This document shows positions 988 through 20,285 of a stretch of DNA of 20,285 nt, piece by piece. The stretch lies in IMG/VR virus record IMGVR_UViG_3300040806_001116, positions 1 to 20,285 of that record, one strand, 5' to 3'. How positions within the stretch are numbered: the first letter of the stretch is position 1; the number at the start of each line of letters is the position of its first letter. The notes beneath the pieces were generated by a model. It saw only the letters and a list, made by a program, of their open reading frames with translations, made no database searches and had not been told where the DNA came from. The position numbers were made by a program, and so were the translations under genes. Source of the stretch: a virus.

Positions 988-1015
988 AGGTAATCAACCT
1001 AGTCTTGCAAGATTT

Positions 1016-1093
1016 GTTGCGATTGAGGAATCGAACCTCGGAGGGGAGCTACCCAATACGTCTCATGAAAACGTCTCTGTACCACCATCGCAA
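1016..1093 (-). tRNA. tRNA-like element, CAT anticodon, reduced D-arm
   Basis: Acceptor TTGCGAT/ATCGCAA is perfect. The T-loop is TTCGATT, with a mismatch at the base of the T-stem. An anticodon arm ACGTT-TTCATGA-GACGT gives CAT (1065-1067). Only about 12 nt lie between the acceptor and the anticodon stem, too few for a D-arm, and the variable region is about 17 nt with a possible GGG/CCC helix. It may be a degenerate second Met or Ile2-type tRNA. The discriminator is C. Confidence 0.5.
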
Positions 1094-1381
1094 TATATTT
1101 TACTTCTAAAACTACCCATAGGTGCGGCAGCATCCGAGGGTATCATTCTAAACCTTTACTGCAGTTAATCAGTCTAGCCTGGCTGTGAATGCGACCAACT
1201 ATTAACGAACTTTCTCCATCACCCCCGATGGTCAGTCGGGGTCTATCCTTTTCAGGAAGATACTTATTCTCACCACTTTTAGAAGTCTTAAACCAAATTT
1301 GAGTTGCAAACCTTGTGAGCCTCTTTGCATCTTTATCTCACCGCTTCTAGGTCCTCTTTCGAGCTCCATTAGTTTAAGAAT
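1094..1381. other. Non-coding spacer with a tRNA-anticodon-like hairpin
   Basis: About 290 bases without a recognised gene. A strong hairpin lies at 1223-1241 (minus strand CCCCGA-CTGACCA-TCGGGG): a 6-bp stem with a 7-nt loop, like a free-standing anticodon arm, but no T-arm is nearby. A 45-codon minus-strand frame starting near 1371 has no recognisable features. The 15-base string at 1291-1305 recurs with one change at 1601-1615. Confidence 0.5.
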
Positions 1382-1455
1382 TGGTTGTCCCGCAAGGATT
1401 CGAACCTCGATTCTCTGGACCAAAACCAGATGTGCTGCCTTTACACCACAGGACA
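1382..1455 (-). tRNA. tRNA-Gln(TTG), CCA encoded
   Basis: Acceptor TGTCCTG/CGGGACA then A73 and encoded CCA (1382-1384). Anticodon stem TCTGG/CCAGA with loop TTTTGGT (anticodon TTG), T-loop TTCGAAT. Confidence 0.94.
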
Positions 1456-1461
1456 ATATTG

Positions 1462-1603
1462 TGATTCCGGTTGGATTCGAACCAACATGATGCTTTAGGA
1501 GATTTAACCGCTGAGGGTTCGTCAACCTTCTAGTTAACTCTCCAACTAACACCCACCGTTAGGTAGTGACCTTTCACGTTCAAAGGTATATCCGTTCGGA
1601 ACC
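1462..1603 (-). tRNA. tRNA-like element, 142 nt, long hairpin in the anticodon region
   Basis: The 3' half is canonical: T-arm GTTGG-TTCGAAT-CCAAC, then CGGAATC and A73. The only complementary 5' strand nearby is GGTTCCG at 1597-1603 (7 bp with one wobble), which makes the element about twice normal size. Inside is an extended helix, GGAGA/TCTCC (1539-1543 with 1498-1502), then TTAAC/GTTAA (1533-1537 with 1504-1508), then GGTT/AACC. A CCTTT/AAAGG hairpin with a 7-nt loop sits near the 5' end. No anticodon arm is certain; GTTAAAT would read TAA. The 5' boundary is uncertain. Confidence 0.4.
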
Positions 1604-1643
1604 AGATTTGAGTTTTTAATTGATCGAAAGAACTCTAACTTCG

Positions 1644-1719
1644 TGGCAGTCCTGACGGGAGTCGAACCCGCTCCACCGACCGTGACAGGGTGGTATCTTA
1701 ACCGTTTGACCTCAGGACT
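1644..1719 (-). tRNA. tRNA-Asp(GTC), CCA encoded
   Basis: Acceptor AGTCCTG/CAGGACT, discriminator G, encoded CCA (1644-1646). Loop CTGTCAC gives anticodon GTC. T-loop TTCGACT. One mismatch in the anticodon stem. It is the first tRNA downstream of the promoter at 1899-1956. Confidence 0.92.
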
Positions 1720-1739
1720 ATTTTGTAGGCCTTGCACCT

Positions 1740-1830
1740 ACTCGGGAGCATCTATAACCCTCCAAATATTAAAAGAGCCGGTCTCTTTAAGACTTACTTA
1801 AGCATATCGGCTGGGCCGTTAGACCAGCTT
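1740..1830 (-). other. Structured leader: consecutive hairpins upstream of tRNA-Asp
   Basis: Between the promoter at 1899-1956 and tRNA-Asp the transcript can form several hairpins in a row: GCTGG/CCAGC (1810-1814 with 1824-1828), TTAAG/CTTAA around 1788-1802, AAAGAG/CTCTTT (1772-1777 with 1783-1788, followed by a T-rich run on the minus strand), and GGAG/CTCC near 1746-1764. No T-loop consensus is present. It may be a leader RNA, a weak terminator/attenuator or a degenerate tRNA. Confidence 0.35.
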
Positions 1831-1898
1831 TCAAATCAGAAGTAATATCTGCATTTTCTTAATTTTACCAATATGTCAAAGAACCATTTTGTTTATTG

Positions 1899-1956
1899 CA
1901 GTGCAAATATAATAAGAATATTTGACACTGAAAAACTTTCTTGCAACTTTTTTCAA
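1899..1956 (-). promoter_or_regulatory. Phage promoter copy P1 (drives tRNA array 1-1719)
   Basis: Minus-strand -7-type box TATATTTG (1904-1911) with GTGTCAA (1922-1928) exactly 12 nt upstream of TATTTG, preceded by a T-run and GTTGCAAGAAAG. The same arrangement occurs at 3964-4020, 4838-4900 and 8608-8669. TATATTTG matches the TAnnTTTG -7 consensus of Bacteroidota. AGTGTCAAA and TTTGCACT form an inverted repeat that could also be an operator. Confidence 0.75.
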
Positions 1957-1966
1957 AGTTTTTTTG

Positions 1967-2037
1967 CACGCCTGTAAGGAATCGAACCCTACCCACGAGG
2001 TTTTGGAGACCTGTGCGGCACCTTGCCTGTCAGACGT
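1967..2037 (-). tRNA. tRNA-Trp(CCA)
   Basis: Acceptor ACGTCTG/CAGGCGT, a short D-arm (GGC/GCC with a 5-nt loop), anticodon arm AGGT-CTCCAAA-ACCT (anticodon CCA), T-loop TTCGATT, discriminator G. It lies just upstream of promoter copy P1 and so belongs to a different transcript from the array at 1-1719. Confidence 0.88.
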
Positions 2038-2053
2038 ATGTTAAAGAACTCTG

Positions 2054-2136
2054 CGGAGAGACTGGGAATCGAACCCAGGCAACCTTTCGGTTGTACACCT
2101 TAGCAGGGTGCTGCATTACCGCTCTGCCACCTCTCC
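2054..2136 (-). tRNA. tRNA-Ser(GCT)
   Basis: Class II tRNA: acceptor GGAGAGG/TCTCTCC, discriminator G, anticodon stem GCACC/GGTGT with loop CTGCTAA (anticodon GCT), variable arm CAACC-GAAA-GGTTG, T-loop TTCGATT. Confidence 0.95.
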
Positions 2137-2140
2137 AAAA

Positions 2141-2174
2141 TAAAAAAGGGCCTCAATCTTGCGATGAGGCCCTT
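2141..2174 (-). terminator. Rho-independent terminator
   Basis: Ten-base-pair stem AAGGGCCTCA/TGAGGCCCTT with a 9-nt loop, followed on the minus strand by a run of six T. It ends transcription arriving from the kinase gene and the short unit at 2212-2298. tRNA-Ser and tRNA-Trp lie beyond it, so they need read-through or an unseen promoter. Confidence 0.8.
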
Positions 2175-2211
2175 ATTTCTAAGTTATATTATATGTTCTA
2201 TCTACCTAAGT

Positions 2212-2298
2212 TCATACAATATTCGGGCCTCTGAGCTCACATGGCTTAATCGCCTGTGACCATCCAAAATCGACCATATATGTATGACTGCGTTTCAT
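2212..2298 (-). CDS. Possible 28-residue microprotein or small RNA
   Basis: An ATG frame of 28 codons (starts MKRSHTYMVD, ends GPNIV) lies between a TTGAAA/GATATATA promoter-like element (2327-2358) and the terminator at 2141-2174, so it would form a compact transcript of about 150 nt. No similarity is recognised. A parallel arrangement with a 24-codon frame occurs at 4079-4153. The unit may equally be a non-coding RNA. Confidence 0.3.
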   Translation of the reverse strand: MKRSHTYMVDFGWSQAIKPCELRGPNIV

Positions 2299-2326
2299 TG
2301 AACTTAGTTTTTCTTGTTATTTGTTA

Positions 2327-2376
2327 GGTATATATCAGCTCACTTGCTAAAAGTTTCAACCTTTTTGAAAATTAGT
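2327..2376 (-). repeat. Direct repeat copy A with promoter-like boxes
   Basis: About 50 bp that recur at 2970-3018: positions 2352-2376 and 2994-3018 differ at one base (2361 versus 3003), and similar downstream sequence ends in TGATATA. On the minus strand it reads TTGAAA, 19 nt, TATATA, like a -35/-10 pair. It overlaps the last codons of the kinase gene: the stop TGA is inside GTTGAAAC. Confidence 0.6.
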
Positions 2377-2895
2377 ATGTACTATAATAGGAAATACCGC
2401 ATAGCTTTCTGGGATGATATAATTTAAACTTAACTCTTTAGCTTTTTTAATTTCTAATTTGTACAATATTTCACCATCCAAAATCGTTCCGCAATACAAT
2501 AATTCACCATTTTCATTTTCTCTAAAATAAAAACCACCATTTTGTTTATCTCTATATTTAATATTGGATTCGGCTTTTTCAGGATTATTCTCAAAATATA
2601 TCCTTGTAATTTTTAAATTAGGAAATTGAGATTTTAAATAATACTCCGCTTTATGTAAAAATTCATTATCACAAAATTCGATACATGAAATTATTATGTT
2701 AGTGTTATTTTTTAAATCTTGAAGGAGATCAGGATAATTCATATCAGCCGCAAAATCTTTATCTAAATGATTCAAAGTCCAAGTCATCCAATCATCATAA
2801 ATTTTATAATCTATAAATGGATGTGCTTTATAGTGCTCAATTAGAGTACTTTTTCCAGAACCGGGAAGACCAATTATAAACGTAACTTCTTGCAT
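2356..2895 (-). CDS. P-loop NTPase/kinase, possibly polynucleotide-kinase-like
   Basis: A 179-residue protein with a Walker A motif at the N-terminus (GLPGSGKST, residues 9-17), as in small phage AAA/P-loop kinases such as the kinase domain of polynucleotide kinase. The downstream part has alternating hydrophobic strands (NIIISCIEF, about residues 65-73; ITRIYFEN, about 95-102) typical of a P-loop fold, but no phosphatase motif, so the substrate is not known. It is visibly more AT-rich than the neighbouring genes and sits alone among tRNA genes between two direct repeats (2327-2376 and 2970-3018), suggesting a cassette acquired separately. The C-terminal six residues are encoded by the repeat itself. 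An RNA-repair role would suit its place in a tRNA array, but that is inference. Confidence 0.7.
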   Translation of the reverse strand: MQEVTFIIGLPGSGKSTLIEHYKAHPFIDYKIYDDWMTWTLNHLDKDFAADMNYPDLLQDLKNNTNIIISCIEFCDNEFLHKAEYYLKSQFPNLKITRIYFENNPEKAESNIKYRDKQNGGFYFRENENGELLYCGTILDGEILYKLEIKKAKELSLNYIIPESYAVFPIIVHTNFQKG

Positions 2896-2922
2896 TTAGT
2901 GTAAATGTATTTTTAACACTAA
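2896..2922 (-). promoter_or_regulatory. Inverted repeat directly before the kinase start
   Basis: TTAGTGT and ACACTAA (2896-2902, 2916-2922) form a 7-bp dyad that touches the kinase ATG. On the minus strand it reads AGTGTTAA...TACATTTACACT, a compressed version of the AGTGTCAA...TATATTTGCACT core of the four promoter copies. It may be a variant promoter or an operator. Confidence 0.4.
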
Positions 2923-2969
2923 TTTAGCTTCGCCTTTCCAAAATCAGTGCCAATAGTGTCTTGGAATAA

Positions 2970-3018
2970 TTTATATCACTTACCTTTCAAAAAGTTTCAA
3001 CATTTTTGAAAATTAGTA
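2970..3018 (-). repeat. Direct repeat copy B with promoter-like boxes
   Basis: Second copy of the repeat at 2327-2376, here directly after the 3' end of tRNA-Leu. It carries TTGAAA and TATAAA 19 nt apart on the minus strand and would give a leader of about 70 nt for the kinase gene. Confidence 0.6.
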
Positions 3019-3098
3019 CTCAAGGAGGGACTCGAACCCTCAAGCCTTGCGGCACTGGTTCCTAAGACCAGCGTGTCTACCAATTCCACCACTTGAGC
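3017..3098 (-). tRNA. tRNA-Leu(TAG)
   Basis: Class II tRNA: acceptor GCTCAAG/CTTGAGT, anticodon stem CTGGT/ACCAG with loop CTTAGGA (anticodon TAG), variable arm GCC-GCAA-GGC, T-loop TTCGAGT. Confidence 0.95.
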
Positions 3099-3115
3099 AT
3101 ATAATCTATATATCG

Positions 3116-3189
3116 TGGGCCCTGCAGGGCTCGAACCTGCGACCTACTGATTATGAGTCAGTTGCTCTAACCAACTGAGCTAAGAGCCC
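3116..3189 (-). tRNA. tRNA-Met(CAT)
   Basis: Acceptor GGGCTCT/AGGGCCC, anticodon stem ACTGA/TCAGT with loop CTCATAA (anticodon CAT), T-loop TTCGAGC. The acceptor starts with a Watson-Crick G-C pair, so it is an elongator Met or a lysidine-modified Ile tRNA rather than an initiator. Confidence 0.93.
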
Positions 3190-3195
3190 TCAATT

Positions 3196-3327
3196 CTAGT
3201 TAATCGCCAATGCAGTTATCACTATTCCTATTAAGAGTAGTATAACCGACAAAATTGCTAGATTCTCAGAGTCTTTAATTTGACTCAATCTCTTACCTTG
3301 GTTTTCGTTTAACATTTTCATAATCAT
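3196..3327 (-). CDS. 43-residue single-span membrane microprotein
   Basis: An ATG frame of 43 codons fills the gap between tRNA-Met and tRNA-Arg(TCT). The N-terminal ~20 residues are polar and basic (contains NENQGKRLSQIKDSE). Residues about 24-42 are uniformly hydrophobic (ILSVILLLIGIVITALAI), a clear transmembrane helix, and the protein ends directly after it. Three in-frame ATG codons (3325-3327, 3319-3321, 3313-3315) are possible starts; no Shine-Dalgarno sequence is visible, as for most genes here. The hydrophobic design argues against a chance frame. No homologue is recognised. Small single-span phage proteins include holin-like, superinfection-exclusion and inner-membrane toxin-type proteins, but nothing chooses between them. 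Confidence 0.6.
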   Translation of the reverse strand: MIMKMLNENQGKRLSQIKDSENLAILSVILLLIGIVITALAIN

Positions 3328-3330
3328 TTG

Positions 3331-3404
3331 TGAACCAGACAGGATTCGAACCTGTGACCGTCTGCTTAGAAGGCAGATGCTCTATCCAGCTGAGCTACTG
3401 GTCC
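3331..3404 (-). tRNA. tRNA-Arg(TCT)
   Basis: Acceptor GGACCAG/CTGGTTC, anticodon stem TCTGC/GCAGA with loop CTTCTAA (anticodon TCT), T-loop TTCGAAT. Confidence 0.95.
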
Positions 3405-3452
3405 ATTCGTTTTACATTCTTTATATGACTAAAAGGAATGTTTGTTTCTTTG

Positions 3453-3538
3453 TAGTCGAGGCGGGAATCGAACCCGCACGGACATTACTGTCCATTGGAT
3501 TTTAAGTCCAACGCGTATACCAGTTTCGCCACTCGACC
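3453..3538 (-). tRNA. tRNA-Leu(TAA)
   Basis: Class II tRNA: acceptor GGTCGAG/CTCGACT, anticodon stem TTGGA/TCCAA with loop CTTAAAA (anticodon TAA), variable arm GGACA-GTAA-TGTCC, T-loop TTCGATT. No intron. Confidence 0.95.
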
Positions 3539-3544
3539 AGGTGC

Positions 3545-3787
3545 CCAGATTTCGTTCTGAGCTGACGTGATCTATCAAGTCCTTGACTTTAATAGATCAG
3601 CGGCTATTACGCCGCTAATGCAAAGTTGTCGTTTGCGTACGCCAATCGTCTCTTCCTATCGCTATCAACCATTGTCAAAAGCCGGTCACCCCCATATTTT
3701 GGTAATATGTAAAAGAACTTGTGGAGGTGGCGGGATTCGAACCCGCGTCCAATAGTCTGCCAATAAGTGTCATTGACAATCAACTTG
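3545..3787 (-). ncRNA. ssrA: Circularly permuted (two-piece) tmRNA
   Basis: tmRNA frees stalled ribosomes and tags the unfinished peptide for proteolysis. In transcript order, the first piece (about 3787-3722) ends with GGACGCGGGTTCGAATCCCG and CACCTCC-A, which closely match the conserved 3' end of bacterial tmRNA. After a 28-nt spacer (3694-3721), the second piece starts with GGGGGTG (3687-3693), which pairs with all seven bases of CACCTCC. It continues with a D-loop-like GGCTTTTGACAATGG, close to the tmRNA consensus GGnTTCGACnGG, then the tag frame (3607-3636) with its stop codon in hairpin AGCGGC/GCCGCT, then a long hairpin (about 3570-3599). Thus 3' half precedes 5' half, the order of permuted tmRNA genes. 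The outer ends, the P2 helix and the pseudoknots are not resolved. No CCA is encoded. Confidence 0.85.
3607..3636 (-). other. tmRNA tag reading frame ANDNFALAA-stop
   Basis: Nine codons from resume codon GCA to TAA (with TAG next) encode ANDNFALAA. The ALAA end is the usual ClpXP-type degron, and E. coli encodes ANDENYALAA in the same place. The ANDNF start resembles tags of alphaproteobacterial two-piece tmRNAs. Confidence 0.88.
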
Positions 3788-3861
3788 CTCCCCCACCTGG
3801 ACTCGAACCAGGGACCTACTGATTAACAGTCAGCCGCTCTAACCAACTGAGCTATGGAGGA
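3788..3861 (-). tRNA. tRNA-Asn(GTT)
   Basis: Acceptor TCCTCCA/TGGGGGA, discriminator G, anticodon stem GCTGA/TCAGT with loop CTGTTAA (anticodon GTT), T-loop TTCGAGT. Its 3' end abuts the start of the tmRNA acceptor piece. Confidence 0.95.
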
Positions 3862-3867
3862 ATGTTG

Positions 3868-3939
3868 TAGTCCGTACGGGAATCGAACCCGTGTCTTCAC
3901 CGTGAAAGGGTGATGTCCTGACCCCTAGACGAACGGACC
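3868..3939 (-). tRNA. tRNA-Glu(TTC)
   Basis: Acceptor GGTCCGT/ACGGACT, anticodon stem TCACC/GGTGA with loop CTTTCAC (anticodon TTC), T-loop TTCGATT. It is the first gene downstream of promoter copy P2. Confidence 0.95.
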
Positions 3940-8681: not shown

Positions 8682-9863
8682 TTACTGTTTTGTAACTGTC
8701 ATGTGTCTAAAGAAGTACCACCAGCCATAGCCAAACATCTTACCCTTGATAGTATCAAGTACTTTCTGGTGATCTGCATTGAAATGGTTGCTAGCATCTT
8801 CCATATTGTCAAATTCACCTTCAGCATGGTTGTATATTGTAACTCGATCAAATGTGCTCAGGTTTGCCAAAAGTCGTTCTCTGCTACTTTCTGCTAACTC
8901 TTTCCAGGGCACAATTATATTTGGACAGCTATAATCATTGAAGAGAATAGTCTTGTCGTGGTAAATTGTCTTAATCAGCACTTGGTCTGCATCAGATACG
9001 TCTGCAATAAGGCTTACTCGATCCACAGAGTCTAAAAACTTACAAGCTGAAATGGCTGAAGTGTAGTTGTACAAGTGGTCATAAACTGGAATATGTCCAG
9101 TTGGTTCCATGTTAGTATACTTGTCAATATAGTAACTTGCGTTTGTGTTAAAATCAGCATATTCTTCAGCTGACATCCGGCCTGAATCTGAACCATCTCT
9201 GCGTACATAAGTATACATCCTTCTTGGTATATGTAGATGCTTACCTCGAGTTAGACTGTAAAAAGTAACCAGAGTATCTGTTGATGTTCTAGTATTCTTG
9301 GTCATACGCATGCCGCTTTCCGTAGGTCTACGCATACATCTAGCATGACCAAACATATTATATGATGATCTGTTTTTCCAGTGTTGGTTGACATTAGTCG
9401 TGGAACGATAGTTAAACTCGGCGACATAGTCTTCAGGTGGCTTAACGAAGAAGTACTGTTCTAAATTGCCATCCACGTCAGTTCGAATAAAGTCGCTGAA
9501 GATACTCATGGCTTCCGGGTACATTTCGAAGTGATTATGGTAAGTCTGTAGAATATTTGGGTCAATCAGGTCATCTGAGTCTAGATCAAAATAGTAATCA
9601 TAGTCTAGGTGTTGAAAGAAGTTCTGATAGAGATAGAGTTCTCGCTTCTCCTTCACATCATAGTACATAATTCTCGGGTCATTGGCCTTTAAGATCTCAT
9701 TCTTAAGCCAGGTTCTGTATTCTGGATCTGCACTAAAGTCATCGCCAATGATTAAAACCCAGTTCTGATATGTTTGACTAAGCACGTTCTTAAACGTAAG
9801 TTCAAGGTGTTCTTGTGGGTTATTGTAGAACGATGTTACTAGTAGAAACTTTTTATCTTGCAT
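8682..9863 (-). CDS. Family 2-type (GT-A) glycosyltransferase
   Basis: A 393-residue protein with an N-terminal GT2 domain (about residues 1-220): FLLVTSFYNN, LSQTYQNWVLIIGDDFSADP and the metal/nucleotide-binding DxD region DLDSDDLIDP (about residues 93-102) are typical of processive-type GT2 enzymes. The C-terminal ~170 residues look soluble and are not assigned. No membrane segment is seen, so it should act in the cytoplasm on a nucleotide sugar. Its 5' end overlaps the upstream glycosyltransferase gene by 11 bases. It is the last of three glycosyltransferase genes; the acceptor (virion protein, modified base or surface glycan) is unknown. Confidence 0.85.
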   Translation of the reverse strand: MQDKKFLLVTSFYNNPQEHLELTFKNVLSQTYQNWVLIIGDDFSADPEYRTWLKNEILKANDPRIMYYDVKEKRELYLYQNFFQHLDYDYYFDLDSDDLIDPNILQTYHNHFEMYPEAMSIFSDFIRTDVDGNLEQYFFVKPPEDYVAEFNYRSTTNVNQHWKNRSSYNMFGHARCMRRPTESGMRMTKNTRTSTDTLVTFYSLTRGKHLHIPRRMYTYVRRDGSDSGRMSAEEYADFNTNASYYIDKYTNMEPTGHIPVYDHLYNYTSAISACKFLDSVDRVSLIADVSDADQVLIKTIYHDKTILFNDYSCPNIIVPWKELAESSRERLLANLSTFDRVTIYNHAEGEFDNMEDASNHFNADHQKVLDTIKGKMFGYGWWYFFRHMTVTKQ

Positions 9864-10554
9864 TGCTCTGGTCTAACATTTTTTGTATGCGTTCAAGTTT
9901 AGTATGTGTATTTCCACCTGCATGGTATACATAATCGATCTTTCCATCCTCCCAGATTCGGTGATATGCGTAAGGAAGTACTTTAATCTTATCTAGTATA
10001 ATTGGATTTTCCAAGTCTTCTTTCTCTTTATTAAGAACATTGGAGCCACCTGCTAATTCAAAAAAAGGCACAAGTATCTCATCTAATCTTGTTTGTTCGT
10101 GGAAATAGGCAGTCTTCCACGGTCCTGGTTCCTGATGCATATGCTGAAGCATAGAAGAACTCCATACGCTATTACGCCAAACCATGAAACCTGTAGTAGT
10201 GTGAGTCCATACTTTATTGCTATTCCTATCATCTTCCATTTTAGGAATTACTAAATCAACTTCACCCTCTACTAAATCCTCAATTTTAATATCTTGATTG
10301 TAAAAAATAGCGTCCGCGTCGATCCATACTATGTAATCAAAATCTTCTAAGTATTTTCTTAGTATACTAATTTTAATCCATGTTGGATGCCAACCATCTT
10401 CTTCAGATGTAACTATTTCTTTAATGTAGGTATATCCATGTTTGTTTGCATATGCAATATGGTTTATAGATGCTAGATCTCCATAATCACATTTACCATA
10501 GTTATCCCATTTAATCTTATCTGTGTAAGCAGTAATGATAGCTATTCTCTTCAT
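9853..10554 (-). CDS. GT-A glycosyltransferase, GT34/nucleotide-diphosphosugar transferase-like
   Basis: A 233-residue protein. RIAIITAYTD starts the Rossmann-like fold, and the DxD motif lies in YIVWIDADAIFYN (about residues 74-86), as in GT34 (galactosyl/xylosyl) and related GT-A enzymes. TTTGFMVWRNS, then HEQTRLDEIL and a C-terminal YAYHRIW-YVYHAGG segment agree with that fold (acceptor and metal-binding His at the end). No signal peptide or membrane helix. Its start lies just after the stop of the fused gene upstream (TAA then TATG), so the genes are probably co-translated. It is more AT-rich than the operon at 4904-8576. Donor and acceptor are unknown. Confidence 0.8.
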   Translation of the reverse strand: MKRIAIITAYTDKIKWDNYGKCDYGDLASINHIAYANKHGYTYIKEIVTSEEDGWHPTWIKISILRKYLEDFDYIVWIDADAIFYNQDIKIEDLVEGEVDLVIPKMEDDRNSNKVWTHTTTGFMVWRNSVWSSSMLQHMHQEPGPWKTAYFHEQTRLDEILVPFFELAGGSNVLNKEKEDLENPIILDKIKVLPYAYHRIWEDGKIDYVYHAGGNTHTKLERIQKMLDQSNAR

Positions 10555-10555
10555 A

Positions 10556-12490
10556 TTAATCCAAATGTGCGTAAATTAAATTTTGAACAGTCTTTATTCT
10601 AAAACCAGCTGAATTTAGCCTGTTATAAACTACTGTATTGATTTCAGGACTATGTGTTTCACACACGATCTTTTTAATTTGTCCTAACCTATCGTCAATT
10701 GCATTAAATATTTCTAATTCTGAACCTTCACAATCAATCTTTAATAGATCAATGTGCCCTACGGCGTCTAATACCTGGTTAATACTTAAAGCATCCACCT
10801 GAACTGTATCACCACCTTCGTTAAATATATCCGCGTGCTTAACCACATGGTTTACAGCAGATGTAGTATCTGATATATTCATCGTTAAAACTCCAGGCTC
10901 ATCACTAACCGCTGAATTAAATGGCTTAATTTCAGTATATGTGGTTGCAAGACCTTTTAGATGTTCGTATGCTTTAGGAGAGGGTTCATATGCCCAAACC
11001 TTTTTTGCGCCTTTATTAATAGCATCAAGCGTAAAGAATCCATAGTTAGCTCCAATGTCTACGACAACATCACCACTTTCTACCATACAATTAGGTTGAT
11101 TATACTCTCCATGGATAAAGATCTCCCAGAAAGTAGAATAATTGTTATCATCCAACTGGTCATTATACAATACAGTGTCTTTAATATTTAATTCGGTACC
11201 TCCATCAAAATGTACATTTTCAACTTTCACCAAGTTGTGGTTTTTATCATACACTTCTATTGCAATAGGACCCAATCCTAAAGTTCTGCTCGGAGCTGGA
11301 ACCCACCAATAATTACCATCAATTTTAACCGCGCTATACGACTGTGCGTCTCTACGTAAACCTGTAGTAATGTCTCTTATTACAAGCCAGTATTTTTCAT
11401 TGGTGGTTCTGGTAAAATTAAATAGAAGTTTATCACCATCTGTACCATTAAAGACAAATGGACATTTAGATTCTATTGTGTGATCTCTCTTTGGAATATT
11501 GTCTATATTTGTAATGATTGACATTAAAACTTGATCTGGACTAGGCTGACACTTAAACTCAGGGTAACCTTCGGCACATTCTGGTGCATAGTGCATTGCA
11601 TTGATAGTATTCCATTCTTTAACTGAATACTTTGGATTAGAAGCACAGAAGAGCTTACATTCACCACCAATAAAATGGAACTTGTAATCTTGGCTACTAT
11701 GGCGCCATGGTGCGATCTTCTCCTTTCTGATTGAAGAACCGATCGTAAAGATCTCTGTATCTGTAGTTCCAGCCAGGTGCATTGGTCCAGAATCAAATGT
11801 AACAAGACCGGACGCATTATTTATTATGTGCCAGAGTTCACTGATTGGACTATCCTTCAGATCACAGTAGTCTAGATCCACATTCTCAAGTTTAATAACA
11901 CCCTTATCTAGATGCATACCGTTATATGTGGGCTCTTTATGACTCATGCCTACCGTGACTATTTTAAAGCCGGTGTGGCTTTTAACTAGATCGACCATTC
12001 TTTGCCATTTCTGCACACTCCAAGTTCTAGAAGGCCAGTTCTCAGTTACGTGGAAAACTAGATAATTTTTATCTACTTTGGCCGCACGCTCGCTCATTGC
12101 GTCTGGAATAAAGTCGTAGTGTGATTCTTCTGGGTAGAGGTGCATACCAACGCCAAGTGCGTGTAGTTGGCGCGCTTCCATGTTGTGCAACTTAATCTCC
12201 ATAGGCTTATCATGGAAGATGTCGCTGCGCATGCCTACGTTCAATTTGATCCACTGATTATATGTGTCAAAGACCTCGTTGTAGCCCTCTTCAGAATCTG
12301 CATTAATATTGAGTACATTATCAACATAAGGGCTATTCTTAAAGATCTCGCTACGGTGTGTCATCACATCGATTTTATGACCATAAGAAAGTGCAACCTT
12401 TCTGATCGCTGGTGTTGAACATAATGTATCGCCAAGTGCTGGACAAGAAACCTTGACCAGCACATTCTTATTGTTAGGTCCTAGTTCCAT
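10556..12490 (-). CDS. Fused GT9-like glycosyltransferase and FkbM methyltransferase
   Basis: A 644-residue, at least two-domain protein. Residues about 8-320 resemble ADP-heptose:LPS heptosyltransferases (GT9, GT-B fold): SCPALGDTLCSTPAIRKVAL at the N-terminus and VTFDSGPMHLAGTTDTEIFT with a following HSS/W segment in the nucleotide-sugar-binding half. Residues about 340-440 form a beta-rich linker, perhaps carbohydrate-binding. Residues about 470-640 are an FkbM-type SAM-dependent methyltransferase: VVVDIGANYGFFT (motif I), VWAYEPSP, and DLLKIDCEGSELEIF. The enzyme could add a sugar and then O-methylate the glycan. It is coupled to the KTSC gene by TAATG at 12490. The fusion looks genuine: no internal stop or frameshift is seen. 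Confidence 0.85.
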   Translation of the reverse strand: MELGPNNKNVLVKVSCPALGDTLCSTPAIRKVALSYGHKIDVMTHRSEIFKNSPYVDNVLNINADSEEGYNEVFDTYNQWIKLNVGMRSDIFHDKPMEIKLHNMEARQLHALGVGMHLYPEESHYDFIPDAMSERAAKVDKNYLVFHVTENWPSRTWSVQKWQRMVDLVKSHTGFKIVTVGMSHKEPTYNGMHLDKGVIKLENVDLDYCDLKDSPISELWHIINNASGLVTFDSGPMHLAGTTDTEIFTIGSSIRKEKIAPWRHSSQDYKFHFIGGECKLFCASNPKYSVKEWNTINAMHYAPECAEGYPEFKCQPSPDQVLMSIITNIDNIPKRDHTIESKCPFVFNGTDGDKLLFNFTRTTNEKYWLVIRDITTGLRRDAQSYSAVKIDGNYWWVPAPSRTLGLGPIAIEVYDKNHNLVKVENVHFDGGTELNIKDTVLYNDQLDDNNYSTFWEIFIHGEYNQPNCMVESGDVVVDIGANYGFFTLDAINKGAKKVWAYEPSPKAYEHLKGLATTYTEIKPFNSAVSDEPGVLTMNISDTTSAVNHVVKHADIFNEGGDTVQVDALSINQVLDAVGHIDLLKIDCEGSELEIFNAIDDRLGQIKKIVCETHSPEINTVVYNRLNSAGFRIKTVQNLIYAHLD

Positions 12491-12717
12491 TATACAGTCT
12501 CGTGTATTTTCTCAAATTCATAATTAGGTTTGATGAACTCATTCAAGGCTCTGCCCTGTGAGTCTGCCATGTTGAAAAGATTCCAATCTGCTAGTTCAAC
12601 ATCTTTGTAAATATAGGATGCGTGATTAAAATGTACAGTTAGAGTCTTATGCTCAACATTGTAAGCGGCTGACTTGACCGTAGATGAATCGTAATGTGAA
12701 TGAGTTGTAGTTATCAT
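12490..12717 (-). CDS. KTSC domain protein
   Basis: A 75-residue protein matching the KTSC domain over its whole length: SSTVKSAAYNVEHKTLTVHF, then YIYKDVELADW, then the A-S-G-x-N pattern DSQGRALNEFIKPNYEFEKI. KTSC domains occur as stand-alone small proteins and fused to RNA or nucleotide-related proteins; their biochemical role is not settled. Its leader contains ATATAAAATC at 12729-12738. It is translationally coupled to the fused glycosyltransferase gene. Confidence 0.82.
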   Translation of the reverse strand: MITTTHSHYDSSTVKSAAYNVEHKTLTVHFNHASYIYKDVELADWNLFNMADSQGRALNEFIKPNYEFEKIHETV

Positions 12718-12728
12718 ATAAATGTTTA

Positions 12729-12738
12729 GATTTTATAT
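12729..12738 (-). promoter_or_regulatory. ATATAAAATC element before the KTSC/glycosyltransferase genes
   Basis: In the 52-bp gap after the tape measure gene the minus strand reads ATATAAAATC, shared with 6502-6513 and nearly with 18985-18995. A possible promoter for the KTSC and glycosyltransferase genes; inferred. Confidence 0.3.
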
Positions 12739-12769
12739 GACACTGCTTAAGAATGTTTACGTTTATTGG

Positions 12770-15700
12770 TTATGTAGATGTAACTCTAATACCTCTTGCG
12801 GTAAGTGTACTCTCCAGGTCTTCGATTGCAGCAACGATAGAGCTCACGTCTACTTCTGGTGGAGCCTGTTGTTGTGTTGCTGGCTTAGCTGCTGCTGTGT
12901 TATCAGGCTTCTTAAATATATCTTTCATTGTAGATCCAAGCTCATTAGTACTTGCTGCACCTTGCTCTACGCTACCTTTAAATTCAGTTAACATGTCTGC
13001 TAGGTTTTGTAATGCATCTTCTAGAGAAGCTCCCATCTGTGCAAGAATGTCTGCTGGTTCACCACCGTGTGTTAATGCCGCAAGTGCCTCGAACATAGTC
13101 CTTGCTTCAACGATCTTTTCAAGATCCATATTGTTAATAGCCTCAGCAGTAACTTGCATACCATCTCCAACTTTTGGCATTGCATCACCAAGTCTAGTCC
13201 ATGCATAACCCTGAGCTGCATAACCTGCTGCTGGATCTTTTGCATCAACTGCTCCCCAGAATGCATTTCTAAATGCCGTTGCGCCTTCCGGGTTAACTGT
13301 ATTTAATGCGTTAATAATTGATGGAATACTCTGACCCATCTTCTCGTAAGCTTCACCAGCTCTAACCCAAAGCCACTTTTTAGTGTTTAATAGTTTAGGA
13401 TCTGCATCGTTACCTGATGTTAATGCACCGATCAATATTTTTATCTTGTTAGCTGCATCTGTTGCATCCCAGTTACCTTCCATCAATTTACTTGCTGCAT
13501 CAGCAATATTCTTGATTGGTTCTGAGATCATTTTAGCGATTTCTGCACCCTTTTCAATTGTTGAAGATGAGAACCAACCGCTATCATCTTCAGCACCCAA
13601 CTTCTTAAAGATACCTACCAGACCGCTATTACCGTCAGCACCTAATAGAATAAGTTTAACATTCTTCTCAACTTGCTTAAGCTTAGAAGGAATATCGCTA
13701 GCATCTGCAAAAGCAATCGCTTTACCATCTTTGTCGTATTTAGTCGGAAACTTAAGATTAGCCATCATCTGTACACCTTCCGCTAAGTTTAGCAGAGGAG
13801 TACCAACGTTCTGAATCATCTCTACACCCTTTTCGTAATCAGTGCTTGTGAACCAGCCTTTATCCGGACCGTTTGCCTGACCAACTTGTGTAAACACAGA
13901 GACTAGACCCTGTGTAGTACCATCGCCAAGTAGAATAAGTTTAACGTTTTCATTTACCTTTCTAATTGCACTAGGTATATCGACGGTCTCAAATGCGATT
14001 GGTTTACCTTCTTTATCCCATTTAGTCGGGAACTTAAGATCTGCCATCGCTTGAACACCAAGAGCAATACCTGTTAAGGCATCACCCATACCCATTACAG
14101 ATGATATACCGTCTGCAACTGGAGATTGTGTACCACCGCCGAATATGCTTGCAAATAGTCCCCTTTTACCACCTGGGTATTTAGTACCAATCTCACCGAA
14201 TACAGTTGCCAACACAGATGTAATCATTGCAGCGTTAGTTGCAACTTTCATTGGTGCATCCGAGTTCATACTCTCGAACTTGATCGGATTGCCCTCTTTA
14301 TCAAATTCAACTGGGAACTGTAAGTTAGCCATTGCCTGCATACCACGAGCGATACCGGTCAAGGCTCTACCCATGCCCAATGTTGCTGAGACACCTTGTG
14401 CCACTACCGAACCACCACTAAAGATACTTCCACCGCCACCTGGGTAGAGTGTACCAATTCTTGCAAATGAATCTGAAAGTGACGTAACTATCATGTTTAC
14501 GTTATTGTTGAGTGACTTAAGATCTGTCTTCTCAGCAATCTTCTGGAATTCAGAAATGCCTTTACCGATTAGAATCAGAGCAGCTCCTGCCATAATAAAT
14601 GCTGGCGCACCTGCGTAAAGTCCAATAAGTGAAAGTGGACCTAGACTCATTGAGTCTGCAATTGCCTCAAACATCACTTCCATGTTGCTCTTAGGTCGAC
14701 CACCACCGATACCTAAGAAGCCTTTAGTTTTCTGACCAGAGTCAGCAAAAAGACCACCGCTTTTAAACATAGTACCAATGTCTAGTTTAGTGAAATAACC
14801 TAGGCCAATACCAATTGGTATCAGTGCTAGACCTGCTACCATCATCGCAGCGGAACCAAGCATAATAAATGGTGCAAGAAGGCCAAAGGCTGCCATCTCA
14901 ACACCTAACAGTGCAATCAGTGCACCATATTGTCCAATACGTTCAAAACCATTATCTCCTAAAGCTGCATCTAGTCCTTTTACACCAATACCAATTACTA
15001 GCAGTGATATACCTGCTACCATCATCGCAGCGGAACCAGCTATAATATAAGGCGCAGCTAAACCTGCAAGTCCCATTGCAATTCCTAGACCTCCAATCAA
15101 AGCTCCCATCATACCAATGCGCTCCCAGCCATTTTCTTCAGGGATCGCTGCGTTTAGTATAGAGACTCCAAATCCTATTACTATCAATGCCACACCTGCA
15201 ACTAACATTGAAAGAGCACCTTTAATAATTTGAGCAGCACCTTTACCTGCTAGATAAAAACCTGCACCGATAGCACCGATTACAATGAATGCCTTTAAGG
15301 TTTCCATCGAAAGGATGTCACCGGGTACAAGCATGTCAAAGAAGTAGAGTGATAGTCCTAGAGCTAGAATAGAAAGTGCAGCAAAGCCCATAGCTCGAGC
15401 ACCTTTAAGAATTGTTTTTCCTTTTATTCCAATTAGACCAAACGCTAGTGCAACTGCACCAATGATAATGCCTATTTTTAGTATGTCTTCAGGTGGCGGT
15501 GCTATAATATTAAATAGAGCTAGAGCAACACCAATTGCTAGAATAGATATGGCTGTTTTAAGCATTGCTTTCGCACCCATTTCAATCTTGTCTAAGATCT
15601 TCATCTGATCTAGAAGCCAGAATGTACCACCGATAATCAAGAGTGCACCTGCTGTATAGAATGCTCCTTTGAGCATATAAGGTCCGATAAAGCTAATCAG

Positions 15701-16816
15701 AGCTAGAGAAGCTCCGATTGCTAAAATACCTAAACCTAAATTCAACATATTCTTGCCAAAGTCATCGCCTGTATCAAGACCTCCTTCTATTAGACTTATG
15801 CCAATAGTTAAGATCATCATTGTACCAACAAAAATAAGAGCTCCTTTCATAAGCTGAGCTCCCAAAACTGTAAATATATACAAGCCTGCTGCAACAGCTA
15901 ATAAACCTAGGCCTAGAGCTGCAATACTTTTATTAAATTCTGAAACTTTTTCTAGAGGTATAAGTTCGTCGATCAACGCTAATACTCCACCTAGTATTAA
16001 GATTGAGCCTGCTGCGAAGAATGCACCCTTTAGCATCTGAGGTCCAATTAGACTAATCAAGGCTAAGACGCCTCCTAAGACAGCTATCCCAATGCTTAGT
16101 TTAAGAAGAGCATCTGCCTGTTTCTTTGCGACCTTTGGATTTAACATAGTACTCATGATCTGAAGTACCTTAGTGATACCAATTAAAATAAGACCAGCAT
16201 ATAGAGCTCCTTCTATTGCCTGCATACCAATTAGACTAACAAGAGCTAGTGAACCAGCTAGTACTAGAATACTTAAGCCCACATCACCTAATAAAGAAAT
16301 CTTCTTGAGCGTCTTTTTATCCAGTCCTTGTGCTGCAAACATTAAGCCATTTAATGTAAACATCAGACCCGGCACCCAGATGGGTGCTAACAGGGCACTC
16401 ACTAATAAAAGTGGTGTCGCTATTATCATACTGATAGCAAAGCTAACGATAGCATCCCCTATCTGGCCAAGCTTAACTAGGCCGCCGACTAGAGCATCCA
16501 TCTTCTTGGCAGCTTTTTTGCCATCGGGCAATTCATTCAATGCCTGTACTAATATCTGAAAACCTTTACCGAGAGGCTCCATTGAATTACCGACAATGGC
16601 TAGAGCCTTAGCATCTTTGATGGCCTCCTTACCGGATGCTGCACCGTTGTTAGCAATTACGCGCAACAGTTTGACCATCTCATCCATCTTAGTGAATAAG
16701 ACACCACCAACAGTCACGGAAGCAGCGGTCAGTTCACTGGCCTCTGCTATCCGATTTAGTTGTTTTGATTGTTCGCCTATTCTATCAAAGGCGCTTTTTA
16801 AAAAGTTTAAATTCAC
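12770..16816 (-). CDS. Tail tape measure protein
   Basis: At 1348 residues it is by far the longest gene, placed after the tail sheath, tube and chaperone-like genes, as expected for the protein that sets tail length and passes DNA through the membrane. The start is GTG at 16814-16816. Residues about 1-110 are helical. About 125-690 hold many hydrophobic, Gly/Ala-rich segments in repeats (motifs such as LKGAFFAAGSILILGG and SLIGPQMLKGA). Around 820-850, 915-945 and 1010-1040 a block recurs three times with a core FPTKWDKEGKPIAF. The last ~90 residues are charged and rich in A, P and Q, ending in a short helix. Its lack of homology to named proteins is normal for tape measures. Frames on the opposite strand are shadows. 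Confidence 0.87.
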   Translation of the reverse strand: MNLNFLKSAFDRIGEQSKQLNRIAEASELTAASVTVGGVLFTKMDEMVKLLRVIANNGAASGKEAIKDAKALAIVGNSMEPLGKGFQILVQALNELPDGKKAAKKMDALVGGLVKLGQIGDAIVSFAISMIIATPLLLVSALLAPIWVPGLMFTLNGLMFAAQGLDKKTLKKISLLGDVGLSILVLAGSLALVSLIGMQAIEGALYAGLILIGITKVLQIMSTMLNPKVAKKQADALLKLSIGIAVLGGVLALISLIGPQMLKGAFFAAGSILILGGVLALIDELIPLEKVSEFNKSIAALGLGLLAVAAGLYIFTVLGAQLMKGALIFVGTMMILTIGISLIEGGLDTGDDFGKNMLNLGLGILAIGASLALISFIGPYMLKGAFYTAGALLIIGGTFWLLDQMKILDKIEMGAKAMLKTAISILAIGVALALFNIIAPPPEDILKIGIIIGAVALAFGLIGIKGKTILKGARAMGFAALSILALGLSLYFFDMLVPGDILSMETLKAFIVIGAIGAGFYLAGKGAAQIIKGALSMLVAGVALIVIGFGVSILNAAIPEENGWERIGMMGALIGGLGIAMGLAGLAAPYIIAGSAAMMVAGISLLVIGIGVKGLDAALGDNGFERIGQYGALIALLGVEMAAFGLLAPFIMLGSAAMMVAGLALIPIGIGLGYFTKLDIGTMFKSGGLFADSGQKTKGFLGIGGGRPKSNMEVMFEAIADSMSLGPLSLIGLYAGAPAFIMAGAALILIGKGISEFQKIAEKTDLKSLNNNVNMIVTSLSDSFARIGTLYPGGGGSIFSGGSVVAQGVSATLGMGRALTGIARGMQAMANLQFPVEFDKEGNPIKFESMNSDAPMKVATNAAMITSVLATVFGEIGTKYPGGKRGLFASIFGGGTQSPVADGISSVMGMGDALTGIALGVQAMADLKFPTKWDKEGKPIAFETVDIPSAIRKVNENVKLILLGDGTTQGLVSVFTQVGQANGPDKGWFTSTDYEKGVEMIQNVGTPLLNLAEGVQMMANLKFPTKYDKDGKAIAFADASDIPSKLKQVEKNVKLILLGADGNSGLVGIFKKLGAEDDSGWFSSSTIEKGAEIAKMISEPIKNIADAASKLMEGNWDATDAANKIKILIGALTSGNDADPKLLNTKKWLWVRAGEAYEKMGQSIPSIINALNTVNPEGATAFRNAFWGAVDAKDPAAGYAAQGYAWTRLGDAMPKVGDGMQVTAEAINNMDLEKIVEARTMFEALAALTHGGEPADILAQMGASLEDALQNLADMLTEFKGSVEQGAASTNELGSTMKDIFKKPDNTAAAKPATQQQAPPEVDVSSIVAAIEDLESTLTARGIRVTST
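13700..14345 (-). repeat. Three protein-level repeats in the tape measure gene
   Basis: Three copies of a block about 95 codons apart, with cores at about 13720-13745, 14000-14030 and 14285-14310. Each encodes a version of MAxLxFPxxxDKxGxxIxF. It probably arose by internal duplication and may relate to tail-length change. Confidence 0.75.
14831..15038 (-). repeat. Identical 28-bp direct repeats 180 bp apart
   Basis: Positions 14831-14858 and 15011-15038 are identical and lie exactly 60 codons apart in the tape measure frame, encoding the same GSAAMMVAG segment. This marks a recent 60-residue unit duplication within the hydrophobic region. Confidence 0.85.
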
Positions 16817-16850
16817 TTAGAGACTAAGTCTTTTTTTATTGATGCTCTAT

Positions 16851-16859
16851 CTATATATC
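16851..16859 (-). promoter_or_regulatory. GATATATAG element before the tape measure gene
   Basis: The minus strand reads AAAGATATATAG directly after the stop codon of the small chaperone-like frame and about 35 nt before the tape measure start, matching the GATATATA strings at 18987-18995 and 4163-4170. Possible promoter. Confidence 0.35.
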
Positions 16860-16860
16860 T

Positions 16861-17199
16861 TTATAGCTTTGGCATCTTAAGACTAGGAGTCTTTAGATTA
16901 GGGACCTTGGGCATCTTTGGCGTTTTAAAACTGTTTGTTCTTTCATTAGCCTGTTCTTGTTGGTCCTTGTTCTGTTTGTTTCGTTCCTTAAGATGTTCCT
17001 GCAGATTCTTAACATAGTACCAATATTCATAGTAGTACATGTTTTCAATCTCTGAAGGCTGCATCCTAAGATGTATACCCAGGTAGAACTTAGTCTTAAA
17101 GTAGTTCTCCAGCGAGATCTGAAATAATGAAAAGACTTTTGATGCCACCTGGGAAGTCAAGAGGGGCTTTCGCAACCTCCCCGTCGATTTCTTTTTCAA
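16861..17199 (-). CDS. Second frame of a tail-assembly chaperone pair (possible frameshift product)
   Basis: A frame of up to 112 codons that overlaps the end of the preceding gene by 104 bases in the +1 frame and ends just before the tape measure gene. The part after about residue 30 (SLENYFKTKFYLGIHLRMQP, SEIENMYYYEYWYYVKNLQE) reads as real protein, followed by a charged, K/P-rich tail. The listed ATG at 17197-17199 gives an unlikely N-terminus. More plausible are translation from the internal ATG near 17064 (MQPSEIENM) or expression as a C-terminal extension of the upstream protein through a +1 or -2 ribosomal frameshift within the overlap. Position and layout match the G/GT chaperone pairs found upstream of tape measure genes in many tailed phages. 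Confidence 0.6.
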   Translation of the reverse strand: MKKKSTGRLRKPLLTSQVASKVFSLFQISLENYFKTKFYLGIHLRMQPSEIENMYYYEYWYYVKNLQEHLKERNKQNKDQQEQANERTNSFKTPKMPKVPNLKTPSLKMPKL

Positions 17200-18097
17200 G
17201 TGTTGTTTCTACACCGATCTTCATGCGTTCTGCTAATCGGTAGATCACCATAAATTTCTTTTCATCCCAACCTTTATAGTCAATCTCTAGTTCAAAGATT
17301 TTCTTCATGTTGATGTTTCTCCAGTCACTGGCAATATAAGGTAGGACTTGAATGAAAGCCTTATCAAAATCAATACCCTTCTCTTGACGATCTTTAAGGT
17401 ATTTAGTGATTTCTTGCATAACACCAATTGTTGGTGGACGCATTCTCACTGTACCTGCAGATCTGGTTTTAATTACATAAGTACGTTCAGCTGCAGAATA
17501 ATATTTCTCAATTTCTTCTGGAACCTGATTAGGTACTAGGTAACGTGTTGATAATTCGATTTCAACTTGCTTGTTAGATTCTTCCATTTTACCTTTAAGA
17601 ATAATCTTATTCTCTGGTTCTGGAAAGGTCAAGTCCCTTACTTTAAGAAGTAAAACAATTCTATCTTCTTCAAGAAGATCTTTGAATGAGAGTCTTCTAG
17701 TGCCAGCCTCAAGCTTACAGCAAGATTCAACAATTGAGTTTAACTTCTCTTCCATATCAAGGTAGTTAGCCTCGTCCATTGTTGAAAAATGTCTAATCTC
17801 AGCTGCTTTGGCAGATCTAATCTGTAGTTTGAATTCAGCTGGATAGAATTTACCCATTGAAGGCAAATCTTCTAGATTAACAGTGTGCCAGCCTAAGATG
17901 TTATCTGAGCTCTCAGGCGTTTCAGGTACAAAGTTACTCATGTCAACTCTACCTAGACCTTTTGAGTCAATTACATTCTCAATTGCATCTGCTTCAGCGT
18001 CTACATTTTGATGCGCGTTTGTGTTGATTCCTTGGTCTTTAGCATCAAGCTGTCTAGCTAGATCCTCTTGGTTCATGTTCTTGTTTTCGTTATCCAT
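17096..18097 (-). CDS. Tail assembly chaperone or baseplate hub protein, T4 gp26-like
   Basis: A 333-residue protein. The N-terminal ~65 residues are acidic, Asn/Asp-rich and probably disordered. The rest contains LPSMGKFYPAEFKLQIRSAK, EIRHFSTMDEANYLDMEEKL and EDRIVLLLKVRDLTFPEPEN, a pattern I associate with the T4-type baseplate/gp26 family of myophages. That identification rests on memory of the pattern, so it is only moderate. Being directly upstream of the tape measure gene and having an overlapping +1 frame at the 3' end, it could alternatively be the chaperone G of a G/GT system. The ATG lies two bases after the upstream stop codon. The protein is not expected in the finished virion if it is a chaperone. 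Confidence 0.6.
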   Translation of the reverse strand: MDNENKNMNQEDLARQLDAKDQGINTNAHQNVDAEADAIENVIDSKGLGRVDMSNFVPETPESSDNILGWHTVNLEDLPSMGKFYPAEFKLQIRSAKAAEIRHFSTMDEANYLDMEEKLNSIVESCCKLEAGTRRLSFKDLLEEDRIVLLLKVRDLTFPEPENKIILKGKMEESNKQVEIELSTRYLVPNQVPEEIEKYYSAAERTYVIKTRSAGTVRMRPPTIGVMQEITKYLKDRQEKGIDFDKAFIQVLPYIASDWRNINMKKIFELEIDYKGWDEKKFMVIYRLAERMKIGVETTLEKEIDGEVAKAPLDFPGGIKSLFIISDLAGELL

Positions 18098-18099
18098 AT

Positions 18100-18321
18100 T
18101 TACTTGTCTTTTAAGTTTTTAAGATCTTTTTTTATTGTTTGTCTTTCTTCTTTAGTTCGCTTACTCAATTCATTTTGGATTAATATACGTATGAACGCAC
18201 TAATAGAAACTGGTCTTTCCTCCTTTTCTAAAGCATCATTCAATATAATCCTATTGACCTGAGCAACTTCATCTTCTGTCAAAAGCACTTGCAATTTCTT
18301 TGTCAGTTTATGATTGTTCAT
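18100..18321 (-). CDS. Small ribbon-helix-helix-like protein
   Basis: A 73-residue, Lys/Glu-rich protein. The segment KLQVLLTEDEVAQVNRIILN followed by PVSISAFIRILIQNELSKR has the strand-helix-helix layout of ribbon-helix-helix (Arc/MetJ/CopG) DNA-binding proteins, with the typical S-x-F-I-R start of the second helix. The C-terminal ~15 residues are a charged helix. It could be a late regulator placed within the tail operon, but no operator is identified. Its leader starts with TTGAAAC at 18347-18353 and TATACT near the ATG, reminiscent of the other TTGAAA elements. Confidence 0.6.
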   Translation of the reverse strand: MNNHKLTKKLQVLLTEDEVAQVNRIILNDALEKEERPVSISAFIRILIQNELSKRTKEERQTIKKDLKNLKDK

Positions 18322-18356
18322 AGTATATTATGTTGGTATTGTAATATGTTTCAAGT

Positions 18357-18391
18357 TCAAAAAAAGAGAGAGACTTTAAAAGGCCTCTCTC
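18357..18391 (-). terminator. Probable rho-independent terminator after the tail tube gene
   Basis: On the minus strand an AGAGAGG/CTCTCT stem with a loop of about 10-12 nt is followed by seven T. It lies 20 bases after the stop codon of the -1 frame of the tail tube gene, which supports that frame as the true 3' end of the gene. Confidence 0.7.
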
Positions 18392-18411
18392 CTTAAGTGA
18401 TTTAATACTTA

Positions 18412-18968
18412 TTAGTTTAATTCTTCAGCGAATACGTCGCTTCTCCATGTAACTTCTAAAGTTTGTGGATCTGCTGATTCATAAGATAGTTCACCTGTGA
18501 AACCTAAACCTGATGTGATGAATGCATCATCAAGTGTTACTTTTCTGTAGATGTCACCCTCTCTGTTGAATTGTACAATTACGATCGTACAACATAATTC
18601 TTTTTCAAGCCCATTTCACCAGTTTCCGGGTTGTATGCGCTTCTGTACCATTGTCTCATAGTCTTGTACAGATATGCTTGATTTGAATCATTTAGGTTTA
18701 ACGTAAAGTTAACTGTTACGTCAATTGCTGTTCCATCAGGCATACCAGCATAAGATCTAGTTGAGAACTTATACTTCTGCTCAACGGCTGCAACTTCTCT
18801 ATGAAGAGCTTCCAAACCCGAGATTGAGTTTACATGTTGTAATAGTAGTTCTTGACCAGAAACTCCGGTTGGAGGTAGAATAGTTACCTCAAACAGGTTA
18901 GCCTGTACTGGTTCGAACTGCTTACCTTTCTTGCTGGTTTGGTCTTCTGAATAATGTGGTAAAGCCAT
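18412..18968 (-). CDS. Tail tube protein, reading frame broken by a -1 shift
   Basis: The tail tube forms the inner channel of the tail. The ATG frame (from 18968) gives MALPHYSEDQ..., with tube-like features: a hydrophobic strand VTVNFTLNLNDSNQAYLYKT and MRQWYRSAYNPETGEMG (about residues 100-116), matching the conserved W/Y-rich block before NPxTG of T4 gp19-like tubes. It then meets a stop at 18579-18581. The -1 frame is open from before that point to TAA at 18412-18414 and encodes the expected tube C-terminus (TIVIVQFNREGDIYRKVTLD, then SGLGFTGELSY and TLEVTWRSDVF). Restoring one base in the A5 run (18601-18605) gives a 185-residue protein of normal size. Either a sequencing or assembly indel, a real mutation, or programmed frameshifting at AAA-AAG explains this. 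Confidence 0.82.
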
Positions 18969-18984
18969 TTTTATCTTTCTTTTA

Positions 18985-18995
18985 TTTTATATATC
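18985..18995 (-). promoter_or_regulatory. GATATATAAAA element before the tail tube gene
   Basis: In the 36-bp gap between sheath stop and tube start the minus strand reads AAAGATATATAAAAT. It shares ATATATAAAAT with 6502-6513 and GATATATA with 16851-16859. It resembles late promoters of T4-type phages (TATAAATA) in composition and position; function inferred. Confidence 0.4.
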
Positions 18996-19004
18996 TTTCG
19001 TTTC

Positions 19005-20285
19005 TTATGCAAAGTTTCCTGTTGCGATTTCACCAGTGTTCAAAATAGTAACACGTGATACAAGAATTTCAAGACCTTTAACCGGTTCAACGTATGTATC
19101 TAAGATACCCATGTTGTTATCGATTACTTCGTTAGTGTTATTTGTTGTGTCCATAATGTTTCTATAGTCATAAACACCACCGTCTTTCTTAACTGACTCC
19201 ATGAAGTTGTCAGCTAGAGTTTGGATCTCTAATCTTGTTTGTGCGTTGTTAAACTCGAACAAGTAGTTTTGTAAGATTGCTGCTAGACCGTCTTCGATGT
19301 AGATCATTGCTTCTCTTACGTGAGCTGATGAAAGAGCTGACTGGATTGACTGTTGAGCAGTCTTGTTACCTTTAATTACAATACCAACTCCTCTTTCGAA
19401 TACGATTGGGTTGTAACCAAATGGCTCAAGTACGTCTCTGTCATTCTTGTCGAACGCAAATTCAACACCTTGTACGCCAGTACCACCAACAACACCTCTT
19501 CTTGGACCTGCCACGATTGACCATGGTAGAGAGTCGAAGTATTTGTCGATGTAGTTGTTTGATACGTAAGCTGCTGGTGGAATCACCTTAGTTCTTCCAT
19601 TCTCTAGTACATTCAGACCTGGACCGTAGTAGAACGCGTAGTTAGCGCCTTCATTCAGTGAAGGTAGTGTGTATAGAGCAGTTGGATTAAGGTTTAAGTT
19701 ACCACCTGTTCCAACGTATCTTGTTTCAAATTCACCAGTGATCTCGTTCATGAACGATGGGTTTTCAGAGTTTTTAAGTTCTTTAACCATCGGTGCATTC
19801 AAGATCGCACTTGCGTTTTGTCTATCTTTACAAAGTTGAGCAATTTCTTCTTTGTTCAAGATACCGCCGGCTTCTAATGAACCGAATGTATCAACAACGT
19901 ATCTGAAGTCGATTGCGTCTTTGTCGATAAGAGTATTAGAAAGACCGTTACCTGGCTTTAACATTGTTAAAAGCTCTGCAATTGTCTTATCAGTTTGAGT
20001 TGCACCTTCGATCGGGAACATCTTGTAAACTTCAGTTGCTTCTTCGTATGATCTAAGAGCATACTCTGGCTCAACTGACATGTTTCTGTGACAGATAAAC
20101 TCAAATGTGTAAGTTGTATCTCCGTTACCGTCAACTACTGGTGTTAACTTCTTAATTTGCTTGATTCTAGCTAGATCGCCTTGGTTAGCATTTGTTGGTA
20201 AGTACATACCAACTTTGATGTGCATCATTTCGCTATCTGGATCTAGTGGATTGTAGTTTGGGTTGAACGCTGGTTCAGAACCACC
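19005..20285 (-). CDS. Tail sheath protein, C-terminal part
   Basis: The contractile sheath surrounds the tail tube and drives injection. The frame is open through the window edge: codons 20229-20285 are in frame with the first internal Met, so the true start lies outside and the visible 427 residues are the C-terminal portion of a probably 600-800-residue protein. Sheath features are clear: WSIVAGPRRGVVGGTGVQGV, NPIVFERGVGIVIKGNKTAQ, the AREAMIYIEDGL-type stretch (HVREAMIYIEDGLAAILQNY) followed by FNNAQTRLEIQTLADNFMES, then NNTNEVIDNNMGILDTYVEP and a terminal strand VEPVKGLEILVSRVTI, as in gp18-type C-terminal domains. It is directly followed by the tube gene, as in most myophages. Confidence 0.9.
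   Translation of the reverse strand, partial: GGSEPAFNPNYNPLDPDSEMMHIKVGMYLPTNANQGDLARIKQIKKLTPVVDGNGDTTYTFEFICHRNMSVEPEYALRSYEEATEVYKMFPIEGATQTDKTIAELLTMLKPGNGLSNTLIDKDAIDFRYVVDTFGSLEAGGILNKEEIAQLCKDRQNASAILNAPMVKELKNSENPSFMNEITGEFETRYVGTGGNLNLNPTALYTLPSLNEGANYAFYYGPGLNVLENGRTKVIPPAAYVSNNYIDKYFDSLPWSIVAGPRRGVVGGTGVQGVEFAFDKNDRDVLEPFGYNPIVFERGVGIVIKGNKTAQQSIQSALSSAHVREAMIYIEDGLAAILQNYLFEFNNAQTRLEIQTLADNFMESVKKDGGVYDYRNIMDTTNNTNEVIDNNMGILDTYVEPVKGLEILVSRVTILNTGEIATGNFA

Follow-up and report, generated by a model that had tools for sequence, protein, structure and literature searches.

A one-base deletion confined to one metagenomic contig interrupts the tail tube gene of a T4-like phage, and a probable +1 recoding site lies further along the tail operon

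The interrupted tail tube gene analysed here is best explained as an ordinary single tail tube gene of 185 codons, belonging to a T4-like (Bacteroidota jumbo-type) phage, from which one base is missing near position 18590. The window, by which we mean the whole stretch of DNA analysed, is an IMG/VR virus record of 20,285 bases. Comparison with related sequences shows that the deletion occurs in this contig only and that no other gene of the window is split, and we infer that it is quite probably an error of sequencing or assembly in a metagenomic contig rather than a real mutation. The original prediction, which called for a -1 frameshift at a run of five adenines (A5), described a genuine break and misjudged its cause: the break is neither programmed nor located at the A5 run, and is most likely an artefact.

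Organization and identity of the tube gene

Read along its minus strand, the window opens with the end of a tail sheath gene, which is followed by the tube gene and by other tail genes. Of the sheath gene, which extends beyond the window, the C-terminal part is included (19005–20285), and the ATG listed for it at 20228 is internal; the tube gene starts 36 nt past the sheath stop. From the ATG at 18968 the tube ORF (18968–18579) extends over 129 residues to a TAA stop, and its first 126 residues are authentic, being 100% identical to those of the intact relative L002. The -1 frame contains a TGA at 18618–18616 and is then open down to the TAA at 18412; it carries the missing C-terminus, the segment 18412–18590 on the minus strand corresponding to residues 128 or thereabouts to 185 of the intact protein. 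The two frames share the overlap 18579–18615. A single conserved protein aligns to both halves, so that the split is not a matter of chance ORF structure. The frames had been placed correctly from the start, as had a terminator behind the gene: folding reveals a stable hairpin followed by a T run on the minus strand (18352–18402, -18.6 kcal/mol, z -3.8), which a terminator scan had missed.

Elsewhere in the window, 16 predicted tRNA genes are packed closely together within positions 1–3939, and a tmRNA call that overlaps them at 3338–3811 is probably spurious. Three glycosyltransferase-like ORFs, read as such from sequence only, occupy 8682–12490 and adjoin the tail genes; the largest (10556–12490) has a methyltransferase-like C-terminus.

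The gene product can be identified with good confidence as the tail tube protein, as had been proposed, from profile matches, a low-confidence structural model and adjacency to the sheath gene. Searched against PHROG, L002 matches three tail-tube families in all, among them phrog_45 (E 2.6e-8) and phrog_4542 (E 6.6e-7), while the matches of the truncated 129-residue protein are limited to one unannotated family. The predicted model (mean pLDDT 53, hence of low confidence) finds its best Foldseek matches among tail-tube and related tube-fold proteins, and resembles the tubes of contractile injection systems, the T4 tail tube, the KP1 tube and Hcp. The gene is in these respects comparable to that of the tail tube of T4-like myophages (T4 gp19; PHROG 45, 4542 and 32623): it likewise lies directly downstream of the sheath gene, the full-length relative matches tail-tube profiles, and the fold is like that of the T4, KP1 and contractile-injection-system tubes. 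It differs from them in the one-base deletion of the window copy. By sequence profile alone, moreover, the best solved match of a profile including PAU, PTm1, LR756500 and Lak sequences is T4 gp54, the tube-baseplate junction protein (E 4e-4), ahead of the gp19 tube proteins, which match more weakly in the PDB.

Site of the deletion and the case against a programmed shift

A scan of viral contigs provided 80 relative loci with a tube gene. The frame is uninterrupted in every one of them; 79 encode exactly 185 residues and the remaining one (L035) is cut by the contig end. It is also intact in the cultured phages PAU (184 residues) and PTm1 (180 residues) and in the metagenomic phage LR756500 (182 residues). 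The motif G-L-K-x-x-Y-V-G spans the break; an alignment of 13 members shows no variation at G120, L121, K122, Y125 and V126 and hardly any at G127. Relative to its relatives, the window lacks a single base in the codon of the conserved Gly127 (18589–18592, minus strand), where alignment puts the gap at 18589–18591. This site is some 10 nt further downstream than the A5 run; the lost base comes from a pair of identical letters, and no homopolymer there is longer than two. A homopolymer indel had been offered as the simplest reading; the indel is borne out, whereas the homopolymer, and with it the location at A5, is not. The loss of one base near 18590 puts the last third of the gene out of frame and leads to the stop at 18579; if this loss is an error, the real phage would make a normal tube protein of 185 residues with no frameshifting at all.

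In LR756500 (L102, 2566–8477), the sheath and tube genes are separated, and followed, by several large ORFs; these end alike (SGSLKFEWKNE, TGNYKFEWKKS and TGNYKFEWDKM) and are absent from the lineage of the window.

On the alternative reading, ribosomes slip at the A5 run in a programmed -1 shift and make two forms of the tube in a fixed proportion. It draws on the position of this run, whose AAA AAG codons fall within the overlap of the two frames. The A5 run (18601–18605, minus strand) is indeed read TTG AAA AAG, with G as the preceding base, but these are ordinary Lys-Lys codons that many intact relatives with identical local sequence have unchanged and read through in one frame, while other relatives have AAG AAG instead. 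The overlap contains no X XXY YYZ heptamer, the only one of the ORF being far upstream at 18819. Slippage at A5 would give ELCC in place of the conserved NYVG (residues 124–127), so that the sequence of the family is not restored. Programmed shifting would, finally, be expected to be conserved among homologues, and a change of frame is seen in 0 of the 80 relatives. Uninterrupted frames in all homologues had been named beforehand as the outcome that would speak against a programmed shift. Given the uninterrupted homologues, PAU, PTm1 and LR756500 among them, sequence comparison has already refuted a programmed shift, and two tube forms in a defined ratio, for the family; for the window itself we regard it as exceedingly improbable.

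Sequencing error or real mutation

The contig closest to the window, L090 (IMGVR_UViG_3300040751_000754), shows no substitution over window positions 10398–20012, and the tube deletion is the sole difference in these 9.6 kb. A pattern scan of IMG/VR allowing both alleles returned two records, both with an intact gene, and no second example of the shorter allele. Comparison of the window with 98 matching ORFs of relatives identified the tube gene as the only frame-split gene (a first list of non-triplet indels, made up mostly of gaps that compensate one another in the alignment, was not relied on by itself). With the tube gene as the sole split gene of the window, the idea that error-prone reads introduced many frameshifts was rejected.

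An error at this one position is favoured since all 80 relatives as well as PAU, PTm1 and LR756500 are intact, since L090 is otherwise identical, and since no other record in the IMG/VR scan has the shorter allele. It is also in line with a genome-wide study in which singleton frame breaks validated by homology are expected to be mainly sequencing errors (PMC3711429); as there, the tube break is common to no homologue and both its halves match one intact family, and no notable difference sets it apart from such breaks. Furthermore, the contig appears unreliable nearby: identity with L090 ends at 20012, and the last 273 nt (20013–20285) switch from the L090 lineage to another strain, being about 84% identical to L090 and about 95% to other relatives. 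The change of strain at 20013 may be either recombination or a mixed contig end, and the chance of true recombination counts against an error, as does the two-base repeat at the deletion, which is no classic error site.

The deletion could instead be a real, recent loss of function, belonging to a genome that is defective or to a variant in the minority, with intact co-infecting phage providing complementation. The remainder of the 9.6 kb, in being identical to L090, indicates that the contig is not generally poor, and loss of the base creates a 6-bp repeat that might have served as a template for deletion. The latter argument is not significant, and templating by a quasi-palindrome or a direct repeat was rejected: 9.4% of random single-base deletions do equally well for an inverted repeat and 11% for a direct one. 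The affected product is a core structural protein whose gene occurs once in each of the five relative records searched, no second intact copy is present in the window, and no other contig in the IMG/VR scan carries the allele. A null allele in the consensus is unlikely to persist, given this single-copy status and the removal by the truncation of four of the eight strands predicted by the model. We therefore consider a real mutation unlikely.

It is more doubtful still, to the point of being scarcely credible, that the truncated protein of 129 residues works as a short variant of the tube and can dispense with its C-terminus. Nothing beyond the open frame speaks for it, and the C-terminal third that would be dispensed with holds strands of the predicted fold and is kept in all relatives, distant phages included. 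Once the break is read as an artefact, a supposed instance of recoding in a structural gene falls away, and the contig should not serve as evidence for two forms of the tube.

A candidate +1 shift in the tail operon

Some 1.4 kb downstream of the tube gene, the same operon contains a different, well-supported candidate for recoding. An ORF of 333 residues (17096–18097, minus strand; phrog_36717) is the zero frame of a probable +1 pair, the end of which is overlapped by a +1-frame ORF (16861–17208, minus strand) similar to the baseplate hub assembly catalyst (phrog_634). The pair sits just upstream of a large ORF (16816–12770) in the position of a tape measure gene; this ORF matched no PHROG family, and its size and place suggest that it encodes the tape measure. 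From the pattern of conservation, we think it likely that a programmed +1 shift at CTT_TTC (17134–17129, minus strand) fuses the 333-residue ORF to the gp51-like domain upstream of the tape measure gene, and that this is conserved across Bacteroidota and Sphingomonas phages.

At least 74 nt of open +1 frame precede the zero-frame stop in 72 of the 73 loci where that stop is readable, the exception (L079) being a different match. The same arrangement is found in PAU, PTm1, PTm5, MaF61, MA9V-1, MA9V-2 and LR756500, and is less conserved in other huge phages; Lak phages have ATA TTC, without the conserved +1 overlap. Where the conserved +1 sequence FSLFQ starts, 55 of 56 distinct sequences have NTT_TTY, that is CTT TTC or ATT followed by TTC or TTT. 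Synonymous divergence falls from about 0.40 upstream to 0.06 over the last 12 codons counted from CTT, by way of about 0.16 in the dozen codons ahead of them, a drop of the kind looked for in a dual-coding overlap, and the sole codon still varying in the last 12 (CTA/TTA) varies silently in both frames. An alternative site, the CTT TAA that closes the 333-residue ORF and resembles that of release factor 2, is invariant in close relatives and was rejected: its absence from PAU, PTm1, MaF61 and others leads us to prefer the CTT_TTC further upstream.

Independent initiation of the gp51-like +1 ORF of the jumbo phages is a competing explanation that still stands, since in cyanophage S-H9-2 gp51 is a separate gene with its own ATG. 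ATG, GTG and TTG are all lacking from the overlap in two sequences, and ATG alone in 28 more.

The proposed +1 shift invites comparison with the G-GT tail chaperone of lambda (PMC5009743), where a small pair of ORFs directly ahead of the tape measure gene is likewise joined by a conserved change of frame. The candidate differs in being +1 and not -1, in its site, CUU_U as in release factor 2, and in its partner ORF, which resembles the hub assembly catalyst of T4-like phages. In the context of release factor 2, CUU_U is reportedly the +1 shift site of highest efficiency, and the same review describes lambda-type tail frameshifting as conserved except in T4 (PMC5009743). With tail-chaperone frameshifting of the lambda type reported absent from T4, the +1 candidate would matter more than the result on the tube gene: if true, it would be a conserved +1 version of tail-chaperone-type frameshifting in T4-like jumbo phages, operating at a site of the release factor 2 type.
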